DNA of 64,000 bases from Bradyrhizobium sp. AZCC 2262. Its GTDB lineage: Bacteria; Pseudomonadota; Alphaproteobacteria; Rhizobiales; Xanthobacteraceae. Under the pieces are notes generated by a model. That model was not told the DNA's origin. It did no database searches and saw only the letters and a list, made by a program, of their open reading frames with translations. Numbering within the stretch: the stretch's first letter is position 1; each line of letters starts with the position of its first letter. Below, piece by piece: positions 57,142 to 59,795 of the stretch. A program made the translations under genes and the position numbers. The stretch lies in assembly GCF_036924535.1 (NCBI RefSeq), contig NZ_JAZHRT010000001.1, positions 868,001 to 932,000 on the forward strand, given 5' to 3'.

Positions 57142-57162
57142 CGGACCTGGTATGACTCGTTC

Positions 57163-57281
57163 CGTCATTGCGAGGAGCCAACGGGTCCGGCCTTCGGCCG
57201 GCCCGATGATAAACTCCGCGACGAAGCAATCCATTCTTGCTTTGCTGCACCATGGATTGCTTCGCTTCGCTCGCAATGACG
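57163..57281. repeat. Palindromic intergenic repeat element (119 bp)
   Basis: The ends are perfect inverted repeats (CGTCATTGCGAG at 57163-57174, CTCGCAATGACG at 57270-57281). A second pair lies inside (GAAGCAATCCAT at 57223-57234 and ATGGATTGCTTC at 57252-57263), plus a CCGGCC/GGCCGG hairpin near 57188-57202. The CGTCATTGCGAG...GAAGCAATCCA pattern is a repeated intergenic family I recall from Bradyrhizobium and Rhodopseudomonas genomes. Its insertion explains the 174-nt gap between tctB and tctA in copy 2 versus 10 nt in copy 1. Confidence 0.8.
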
Positions 57282-57315
57282 AACTGCTTGGGATTAACTG
57301 ATGGAAGCCCCGTAA

Positions 57316-58170
57316 ATGGAAGCTTTGGGCCTCTTGATGCACGGCTTCGCCGTGTTGCTGACGTGGAAGACGCTGTTCTTGATGATCCTCGGGCTTGTGC
57401 TCGGCATCTTCGTCGGCGTGCTGCCGGGCCTCGGCGGACCCAACGGCGTGGCGATCCTGCTGCCGCTGACGTTCACGATGGACCCGACCTCGGCGATCGT
57501 GATGCTGTCGTGCATCTACTGGGGCGCGCTGTTCGGTGGCGCCATCACCTCGATCCTGTTCAACATCCCCGGCGAAGCCTGGTCGGTCGCGACCACCTTC
57601 GACGGCTATCCGATGGCGCAGCAGGGCAGGGCGGCGGAAGCGCTGACCGCGGCGTTTACCTCGTCGTTCATCGGCTCGCTGGTCGCGGTGATGCTGATCA
57701 CCTTTCTGGCGCCGATGATCTCGTCGTTCGCGCTGAAATTCGGGCCGCCCGAATTCTTCGCGGTGTATCTCCTGACCTTCTGCTCGTTCGTCGGGCTCGG
57801 CCGCGAGGCCAAGCACAAGACGGTCATTTCGATGTCGCTCGGCCTCCTTCTCGCGGGCATCGGCATGGACACCGTGTCCGGCCAGCTGCGCATGACCTTC
57901 GGCTCGGCGGAACTGCTGCGCGGCATCAACTTCCTGGTCGCCGTGATCGGCCTGTTCGGCATCAGCGAGATCCTCTTGACCATGGAAGAGCGCCTGGCGC
58001 TGCGCGGCCATGCCGCCGGCATCTCGCTGCGCGTGGTCGTAATTCGATTTCTGGCGCAGTGGGGCTGGTGTCCTGGAGCCGAGTGCGACCTCAGTCAGAA
58101 ATGCAGGATAGGTAGAGCCGTCAAACCAGGGCGATGGGCTATGAACCGTGAGCTGGGGTCGACGGCATGA
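57316..58170 (+). pseudogene. Truncated TctA-type large permease (copy 2)
   Basis: The first 240 residues match copy 1 (47970) almost exactly, including 140 identical bases (57397-57536 and 48051-48190). Homology stops after base 58037, within AAGISLRVV. The remaining 44 codons are unrelated, and the second glycine-rich loop and the C-terminal half of the permease are missing. The tail overlaps the end of the convergent radical-SAM gene. The product is very unlikely to work as a permease. Confidence 0.88.
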
Positions 58171-59365
58171 GCTCACGCTCCAACTGGGTGCTCGGCAACG
58201 TGTCTCGCACGTTGATGCGTTCCCCACCTGGCTTGCTGACGTAAAGATGGCTCTCCAGCACGGATTGCATGTTCTCAAACATCGAATAGAGATCGTCGCA
58301 ATAGACCGATGGATTGTCGTAACCGTTTTTCCTGGAAAAACGATGGGGAAGATAGCCTCCGCCGCAGGCGTTCATGAATTTGCACTGTCGGCACTTCTCG
58401 CAAAGATGGATTGAAGCATCGCGTGCGGCTTTCCAGCGATGCTCGTTCCTGACTTCGTCGATGGCATGATCGAAGATGTTGAATTTGGTCTGTGTGAAGC
58501 CGTCGCCTGCGATCCGCAACACATCGTGAGCCTCGACGGTACCATCGGTCATGATGGTGCAAAGTTCGATGGCCTTGTGGCCTACGCCCTCGGTGGGCGA
58601 ATTGTTGCCAAGCAGGGCAGTGATCATGTCGGAAATGATCCGGATATTGGCTGTCGGTGCACTGCGATTGGCGGCCAGCCACAAGTCGAACAGACCGTTG
58701 TAAAACGAGGCAATGGATGGCGGCTTCTCATCCACCGTCGCATCGGGGATCATGATGTCATAGTTTGAAACCCCGCACGCAGCGAAAAACTCGACGTACT
58801 GCGCCGGCGGGTAGGCGGGATTGCAGACGGCCAAGGCGCTTACGCCAATATCGCGTGATACCAGCATGCGGGCGGCGCGTTCCACCGCGGCGTGGGTACC
58901 CGTGCCCTGAAACGTGCGGCGGTGAATGTCGTGAATATGCGCCGGTCCATCGAGGCTGATTGCAACCGCGATGTTGCGCGTCTCGAAGCAGTCCAGCCAT
59001 TCACCATCGATCAGCACGCCGTTGGTTGTGACCGCGATGGGTATTTCGCAGCCTGTTCGTGACGAAATGTCCTCACAGGCCTCGGCAAAACGGTGGAAAT
59101 TCTCAACGCCCCACAGCAAGGGCTCGCCGCCGTGCAGAATGATGGGAAAATCGACGAGGGAGTATCTGGCGACATGTTGCTCGATGCGCTGCAGCAGTTG
59201 ATGCAGCACCTCGGCGCTCATCAGCTTCGGCTTATCGTAGACGGACGCGTCGCGGAACCAATAGCAATAGGAGCAATCAATGTTGCATCTCGTTGCCACT
59301 TTGACCAGTAGCTGCGTGATCGGCTGATCTTGAAAGGTGGCGGAATTTGAATCGTCAGCCGACAT
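58139..59365 (-). CDS. Radical SAM/SPASM peptide maturase (cyclophane-forming type)
   Basis: The 408-residue protein has the SAM-cluster motif CNIDCSYCYW at residues 27-36, HGGEPLLWG, and VTTNGVLID/ISLDGPAHIHD as in peptide-modifying and sulfatase-maturase-like enzymes. The C-terminal SPASM part (about residues 325-375) has CEKCRQCKFMNACGGGYLPH followed by RFSRKNGYDNPSVYCDDLY. The GGG-x-x-x-HR...NPSVYC.DL pattern recalls the FxsB/GrrM group, which joins aromatic side chains to a residue two positions later. A repeat-bearing small gene lies 44 nt upstream on the same strand and is its probable substrate. Confidence 0.85.
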   Translation of the reverse strand: MSADDSNSATFQDQPITQLLVKVATRCNIDCSYCYWFRDASVYDKPKLMSAEVLHQLLQRIEQHVARYSLVDFPIILHGGEPLLWGVENFHRFAEACEDISSRTGCEIPIAVTTNGVLIDGEWLDCFETRNIAVAISLDGPAHIHDIHRRTFQGTGTHAAVERAARMLVSRDIGVSALAVCNPAYPPAQYVEFFAACGVSNYDIMIPDATVDEKPPSIASFYNGLFDLWLAANRSAPTANIRIISDMITALLGNNSPTEGVGHKAIELCTIMTDGTVEAHDVLRIAGDGFTQTKFNIFDHAIDEVRNEHRWKAARDASIHLCEKCRQCKFMNACGGGYLPHRFSRKNGYDNPSVYCDDLYSMFENMQSVLESHLYVSKPGGERINVRDTLPSTQLERELMPSTPAHGS

Positions 59366-59409
59366 GCCGGCACCGGGATGGACTTGATGAAACTACTACC
59401 AGCCTTCGA

Positions 59410-59667
59410 CTAGTATCCTCGAATAAATCCCCCTCTGCGGAACGCGCCTGCGCGCGGAGCATACCCGGCCCTGCGAAAGGCGCCGGCACCCGCCCCTTTG
59501 GCAAATGCTCCTCGTCTGAAGGCAACCTCGGTTGCCACTGGGTCGGCACCTTGGCCGCGCAGGTCACTCAGCAACGCGTCGATGCCTTGATGATCGCTCT
59601 GTATGGTCGCGCCTGGCCCGTGCAGTTGCAGGAGGCTCGCCAAAACCTTGAGCGTCGTTATCGCCAT
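59410..59667 (-). CDS. Candidate RiPP precursor peptide with aromatic-Arg-Arg repeats (85 aa)
   Basis: From the ATG at 59667 (AGGAG placed 7 nt upstream; the ATG at 59673 is too close) the product is 85 residues: a leader starting MAITTLKVLASLLQLHG, a helix-prone middle (GIDALLSDLRGQG) and a C-terminal core from about residue 49. The core has three repeats, AFRRGAF (49-55), AFRRAGY (63-69) and AFRRGGF (75-81), and ends IRGY. Aromatic-X-basic triplets (FRR three times, FAK, FIR) are of the type used by three-residue cyclophane-forming enzymes. It ends 44 nt before the radical-SAM gene, same strand. It matches no precursor family I know. Confidence 0.7.
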   Translation of the reverse strand: MAITTLKVLASLLQLHGPGATIQSDHQGIDALLSDLRGQGADPVATEVAFRRGAFAKGAGAGAFRRAGYAPRAGAFRRGGFIRGY

Positions 59668-59795
59668 GATCATGCTCCTCTTTTCGCGACGCAGCCGAGG
59701 GATCGAACGAAAGGCCGGTGTTCAACCGGTTGAGCAGAGGAGGCAGTATGCCTCCGCTTCTGGCGCAACGCAAGCTGCCTTCACCGTCTGCGCTT

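Follow-up and report, generated by a model that had tools for sequence, protein, structure and literature searches.

In the window analysed here, a stretch of 64,000 nucleotides of Bradyrhizobium sp. AZCC 2262 (positions 868,001 to 932,000 of contig NZ_JAZHRT010000001.1, assembly GCF_036924535.1), a small gene for a basic peptide is followed on the same strand by a gene for a radical S-adenosylmethionine (radical-SAM) enzyme of the SPASM group. We think it quite probable that both genes form a minimal locus for a ribosomally synthesized and post-translationally modified peptide (RiPP) of the three-residue-cyclophane (triceptide) kind, in which a leader-dependent enzyme makes five Phe-x-Arg/Lys cyclophanes. 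This reading is drawn from the best match of the enzyme, which is to the YhhB type, from the links between aromatic residues and Cβ of Arg reported for that type, from the placing of Arg or Lys two residues after each core Phe, and from the co-occurrence of the two genes. The main features of the locus are the following; the counts refer to 41 distinct precursor loci, described below.

59410..59667 (coding 59413-59667), minus strand: precursor peptide gene, 85 residues plus stop, an open reading frame
58139..59365, minus strand: radical-SAM maturase gene, 408 residues, YhhB/FxsB-related, from the open reading frame and family scans
59530..59667, minus strand: precursor leader, residues 1-46, from alignment conservation (leader/core boundary approximate)
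59413..59529, minus strand: precursor core, residues 47-85, five F-x-[RK] sites in Gly/Ala linkers
59512..59520, minus strand: site 1, FRR (F50-R52), F and R invariant in 41/41 loci
59497..59505, minus strand: site 2, FAK (F55-K57), F in 41/41, K in 21 and R in 20, middle residue variable
59470..59478, minus strand: site 3, FRR (F64-R66), F in 41/41, R in 38 and K in 3
59434..59442, minus strand: site 4, FRR (F76-R78), F in 41/41, R in 40 and K in 1
59419..59427, minus strand: site 5, FIR (F81-R83), F and R in 41/41, middle residue variable
59675..59679, minus strand: ribosome binding site AGGAG, 7 nt from the start codon, from the sequence

The initial annotation had described an 85-residue gene with a good ribosome binding site 44 nt before a radical-SAM gene, and its coordinates, strand, lengths and gap all agree with ours. 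An in-frame start giving 87 residues is also present; the ATG at 59667 is the better choice, since it has AGGAG 7 nt before it and the orthologues use the same start, with ribosome binding sites that look similar by eye. The precursor gene is real. Its ratio of nonsynonymous to synonymous substitution rates (dN/dS), pooled over 820 pairs from the 41 loci, is about 0.15 for the whole gene, about 0.12 for the leader and about 0.14 for the core. The 41 precursors are those with distinct upstream sequences among the window and 57 further loci (L007-L063), the other 17 being duplicates of one that was kept. In the alignment, the leader is marked by conserved LHGP and QSDHxGIxALL blocks.

The core carries, in order, F-R-R, F-A-K, F-R-R, F-R-R and F-I-R, and both features reported at the outset, three A-F-R-R-[GA]-[AG]-[FY] repeats and an FIRGY end, are found in the precursor sequence. 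Its last 38 residues contain nine Arg and Lys and no Asp or Glu; when these residues were shuffled 100,000 times, 0.019% of the shuffles contained five F-x-[RK] sites and none contained three full AFRR repeats. Over the 41 precursors, Arg or Lys stands at position +2 after every one of the 211 core Phe residues (186 Arg, 25 Lys), compared with 129 at +1 and none at +3, while shuffled cores have Arg or Lys at +2 in 21% of cases on average and in 28% at most. Moreover, the middle residue at sites 2 and 5 may be A, G, V, I or L with the flanking Phe and Arg/Lys constant, as would be expected if residues i and i+2 are linked. The crosslinking of the F-R-R triplets had been proposed with F-A-K and F-I-R as mere possibilities; this ranking does not hold, as Phe and Arg/Lys of the latter two are equally conserved in 41/41 loci, and all five sites look like substrates. 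At sites 1, 3 and 4 the partner is most likely the second residue of the RR pair. The pattern is also seen in a wider set: a protein search with the precursor gave 750 homologous clusters at E<=10, and the best 120 of them have five F-x-[RK] sites in 115 cases, four in 3 and six in 2.

The second gene product clearly belongs, by its profile matches, to the superfamily of YhhB, FxsB, XyeB and GrrM. It scores 305.2 bits with the NCBIfam model of YhhB (NF041707, cut-off 445), 274.6 with FxsB (TIGR04269, cut-off 370), 176.7 with XyeB (TIGR04496, cut-off 450), 144.7 with the sulfatase maturase model (TIGR03942, cut-off 349.45) and 123.3 with GrrM (TIGR04261, cut-off 310). The three best matches are all cyclophane-forming families, and the maturase does not, on these scores, group with sulfatase maturases. 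The assignment to an FxsB/GrrM group made beforehand was right about the superfamily and wrong about the nearest curated family, which is YhhB. Since it stays under the cut-off of every curated family compared, the maturase is, on these profiles, a member of none of them; Radical_SAM is its only Pfam match over cut-off. The cysteines of the CxxxCxxC motif (residues 27/31/34) and of the CX2CX5C...C pattern (325/328/334/356), seven in all, are invariant in 31/31 aligned sequences, the one from the window included. In a tree of these 31 sequences, the clade of the window (12 rows, support 100/100) and a sister clade (4 rows, 100/100) are joined with support 100/99 and sit apart from the YhhB enzymes; some outgroup branches are long, and only the grouping of window and sister clades is used here. 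Two features expected of a triceptide locus are present, namely a SPASM maturase of the group's type with the shared Cys pattern and an adjacent precursor that keeps positions i and i+2 in 41/41 loci.

Precursor and maturase are tightly coupled. Among 195 genomes drawn from the genus, a maturase orthologue (76-100% identity) was found in 33, in one of them as two contig-end pieces, and five further genomes hold only remote relatives at 30-42% identity. An independent search with a precursor profile returned 33 genomes, identical to the maturase set (Fisher p 4e-38, with relatedness of the genomes ignored). The maturase lies downstream in 24/24 named loci found from the precursor (one cut by a contig end), and the precursor lies upstream in all 30 loci examined from the maturase, that of the window included; the two sets of loci overlap. 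Orphan precursors, which would have counted against the RiPP reading, do not occur in these 195 genomes. All 24 named loci are of Bradyrhizobium, and a search of 397 genomes at the level of the order gave clear precursors in five, again all of this genus. Four other matches of the precursor profile in that search (G295, G325, G360 and G490, E 0.004-0.008) were rejected as chance because of their borderline E values, because three of the four lie inside frames of 579-642 residues, and because no maturase was found in the surrounding 3.1-3.2 kb.

In the mechanism that we infer, including recognition of the leader, the carbon-carbon nature of the bond, the atoms joined and the number of rings, the maturase would bind the precursor leader and abstract the Cβ hydrogen of Arg or Lys at i+2. 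The radical would then close this Cβ onto an aromatic carbon of the core Phe, site by site, to give up to five rings (FRR, FAK, FRR, FRR, FIR) on Gly/Ala linkers with a loss of 2 Da for each. The product would be a rigid, strongly basic multi-cyclophane peptide, with leader removal and any export presumably relying on functions encoded elsewhere.

Comparison with characterised systems gives this mechanism its closest precedents. According to PMC11002830, YhhB connects Tyr (through C3) and His (through C2) to Cβ of Arg, XncB joins Trp to Cβ of Arg or Asn, and MscB joins C4 of Phe to Cβ of Ser. YhhA/YhhB (NF041705/NF041707) is the closest system, with the nearest curated maturase and, as in the window, a small precursor directly upstream of it; the YhhA precursors differ in ending with Y/H motifs such as YHRHNR, where that of the window has five F-x-[RK] sites. 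The NF041705 model finds the precursors of loci L087 and L093 and gives no match to the window precursor at E<=1. Similarly, the NF041707 cut-off is passed by the maturases of G1023 and G1082 (in L087 and L088) and of L084, and not by that of the window. Loci L081, L084, L087 and L088, from other genomes of the genus and the class, hold YhhA/YhhB systems or close relatives; the precursors of L081, L087 and L088 end in YHRHNR, HHRHNR or HHRHSRS, and a downstream gene for a product of 192-206 residues looks, by eye, common to L084, L087 and L088. Loci L089 and L090 have more distant maturases under the cut-off beside open reading frames whose GGNFVSAP-type repeats may mark a further precursor type without a name.

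MscB is taken by us to be an enzyme of the FxsB type. FxsA/FxsB and MscB (TIGR04269) share the superfamily with the window system and, for MscB, the use of Phe as the aromatic partner (PMC11002830); they differ in that the partner in the window is Arg/Lys and the precursor has no FxSxx end. The nearest solved relative of the maturase is ChlB (PDB 9gm3, 188 bits, E 4e-54), which a reference title in PMC12636437 calls a 'multiple cyclophane synthase', so that several cyclophanes on one peptide would be common to both. ChlB differs in having its radical-SAM domain fused to a HEXXH hydroxylase, according to PMC12636437, whereas the maturase of the window has 408 residues and only Radical_SAM as a Pfam match over cut-off. 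As a separate observation, locus L094 on a Rhizobium lusitanum plasmid has a HEXXH peptide-modification protein after its maturase and, before it, a 380-residue gene that repeats MHDQTHSEGGGG units and may encode a very long precursor with many cores. GrrA is a glycine-rich multi-site precursor. The maturase of the GrrA/GrrM system (OscA/OscB, TIGR04261), OscB, also makes cyclophanes (PMC11002830); here the difference lies in the low score of the window maturase with the GrrM model and in the window precursor, which has no NCBIfam or Pfam match at E<=1. The XyeA model, which does find locus L157, gives no match to it either. In the open-licence literature, as far as the titles and beginnings of abstracts listed go, the family is not described, though a 2022 survey of triceptides may list the group without naming it, and nothing was found there that links Bradyrhizobium with cyclophanes and radical SAM.

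Several points weigh against the triceptide reading. Among the characterised enzymes covered in the passages of PMC11002830 consulted, none is described as acting on Phe-x-Arg. With the YhhB model the maturase falls 140 bits short of the cut-off, and its identity to enzymes of that family is only about 29-34%. An AlphaFold model built with 12 close orthologues has a mean predicted local distance difference test (pLDDT) score of 53, too poor for a comparison of active sites, and was set aside. The aromatic rule is not universal, since core Tyr rarely precedes Arg or Lys at +2 (20/140), and the YxR cases listed overlap the first FRR. Furthermore, the 41 sequences are related, so that their invariance is partly common descent, and a role in binding nucleic acids or membranes could also account for the conservation of basic Gly-rich repeats.

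Useful information comes from the sister clade, whose maturases are 41-44% identical to that of the window and adjoin precursors with aromatic-x-Arg repeats in 5/5 loci examined.

L085:1042-1494, L080:3342-3902; also in L073, L086 and L161, and as P0121-P0240: sister precursors

Searching with the L085 precursor yielded 124 clusters (E<=1), and the motif counts that follow refer to the best 120 of the 124. The motif LSRR is present in 115/120 and [ST]RRxF[LIVMF] in 106/120; among the five loci examined, LSRR is found in four, and L161 has LSRH with no twin arginine. In 27 aligned sister precursors the motif resembling a twin arginine is followed by a GVGFGAA..LG-like stretch, often with an ADA-like end. 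A leader motif can be recognised in 110 of the 120; in these, the aromatic-x-[RK] sites have a median of 12 and a maximum of 22, and Tyr has Arg or Lys at +2 in 1212/1303 cases and at +1 in 137/1311. The twin-arginine translocation (Tat) model TIGR01409 (cut-off 16.7) gave 16.2 and 14.6 bits in two of four sister precursors scanned and no match in the other two, and none of the four has an NCBIfam or Pfam family over cut-off. Their matches to an iron oxidase and other weak matches lie far under the cut-offs and were set aside, and a match of the sister profile in G610 was rejected, being within a 369-residue frame, limited to the signal region and with no maturase in the surrounding 3.1 kb. 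These motifs suggest, as a hypothesis, that the sister precursors are exported by Tat. The twin-arginine motif is absent from the window precursor, and its QSDHQGIDALL block has a weak profile match (P 0.0007, probability 26%) to KSTNPALNNII of the sister clade.

With regard to the surroundings of the pair, two further features are needed.

59668..59795, minus strand: upstream region apparently travelling with the pair, a conserved 5' leader, from upstream sequences in different genomic contexts
57316-58170, opposite strand, downstream of the unit: shortened TctA transporter gene, from a profile match

The untranslated leader is strongly conserved in the orthologues, with GCTCAGCCGG...CCGGCCTTTCGTTCGAT...GTCGCGAAAAGAGGAGC. 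A TATAxT-like block is seen by eye upstream in many orthologues, and a consensus scan of the window region gave no sigma-70-type promoter. The pair probably carries its own promoter, given that the upstream block is conserved across neighbourhoods. A structured leader RNA is not claimed: RNAalifold, run on 24 of 33 aligned leaders (the 41 minus 8 divergent ones), returned a consensus fold with a hairpin, and covariation lends it almost no support (term 0.06 kcal/mol, two-sided changes in 1/18 pairs). In the 4 kb scanned with Rfam, the one match was sub-threshold and lay outside the leader.

The pair occurs in about 15 different neighbourhoods, as judged by eye from the gene table of the window and the 24 named loci, and no gene cluster other than the maturase is shared by all 25. 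The next most widespread clusters within 10 kb are short-chain dehydrogenase-like (11/25 loci) and ATP-binding cassette (ABC) transporter ATPase-like (10/25), labels given by eye from four members each in a single-linkage clustering that lumps large superfamilies. The ABC ATPase was rejected as a partner, as L044 is the one locus where it adjoins the maturase, there on the opposite strand, and elsewhere it is about 3.6-10 kb off. In none of the 25 loci does a transporter, protease or immunity gene hold a fixed place beside the pair. The initial annotation saw no adjacent protease or transporter gene; for transporters this needs a slight amendment, as the shortened TctA gene adjoins the unit downstream. 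The match of this gene is confined to positions 1-207 of a TctA profile with 423 positions, and the gene is a member of an ordinary tripartite tricarboxylate transporter set; in L036 its 89%-identical counterpart, downstream of the maturase, is in a longer frame (503 residues).

Ten relatives without the pair were compared at the window site. In seven, the homology with L036 ends at the upstream gene and restarts past the position of the maturase, with some unaligned bases between; the other three have no downstream homology in the stretch compared. In L101 and L103, the block missing relative to L036 is about 1.85 kb, beginning roughly 140 nt upstream of the precursor start and ending about 70 nt beyond the maturase stop. 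No target-site duplication is evident by eye in this comparison. The precursor was found on no plasmid and no viral contig; maturase relatives on plasmids are less than 60% identical (26 records, 27-35% among the 20 listed) and those on viral contigs at most 32% (8 loci). The different neighbourhoods could reflect gain by movement, loss from sites or rearrangement. A palindromic GTCATTGCGAG...CTCGCAATGACG element (window about 57160-57290; L098 about 2220-2290) is apparently an interspersed repeat, a similar one being seen at an empty site of the unit.

A wider picture, which we hold only tentatively and think rather unlikely as a whole, would join these observations. In it, an unnamed poly-cyclophane family would ancestrally have Tat-substrate precursors with up to 22 aromatic-x-Arg/Lys triplets, stapled in the cytoplasm and exported folded by the general Tat system without a dedicated transporter or protease, and the Bradyrhizobium branch would have dropped the twin-arginine signal and would spread to many sites of the chromosome as a unit, about 1.9 kb long, of promoter, precursor and maturase. 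Our confidence in this picture was slightly lowered because L161 lacks the twin arginine.

The same chemistry is also compatible with a product that remains intracellular or periplasmic, acting there as a rigid, basic scaffold or as a binding element, and is no secreted antibiotic or signal, and to our mind the chances of this are evenly balanced. The lack of a fixed transporter, protease or immunity gene favours it, as do the Tat-like signals of most sister precursors, which would bring a folded peptide to the periplasm; the window clade, however, has no such motif, and its patchy presence (33/195 genomes) also fits a product used in competition. It is improbable, in our opinion, that the same sites receive another modification, be it a change of Arg/Lys alone, an ether or C-N link, or modification of only some sites. 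Related SPASM enzymes make such bonds (C-O by DarE and C-N by DynE; PMC11002830 and the search listing of PMC9055067) and the maturase is under every curated cut-off shown in the scan, but the i/i+2 aromatic-x-R/K arrangement in both sister clades is the grammar known from cyclophanes, and links from aromatics to Cβ of Arg are reported for the curated family closest to the maturase (PMC11002830). Basic Gly-rich repeats are common in nucleic-acid-binding tails, and the pair has no exporter or protease as a constant neighbour; nevertheless, that the small gene encodes only a basic Gly/Arg-rich binding peptide, with the radical-SAM enzyme acting on something else, is very hard to reconcile with one-to-one co-occurrence and adjacency across about 15 neighbourhoods and with the aromatic-x-Arg precursors beside all five sister maturases examined.

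If the triceptide reading is true, a RiPP class that is known from a handful of characterised enzymes would gain a specificity for Phe-x-Arg/Lys, peptides with several rings each, and a large maturase clade without a name. A locus of two genes with a clean site rule makes the substrate grammar readily testable. Moreover, the Tat-like signals of the sister precursors offer a testable route by which cross-linked RiPPs might leave the cytoplasm without a dedicated exporter.

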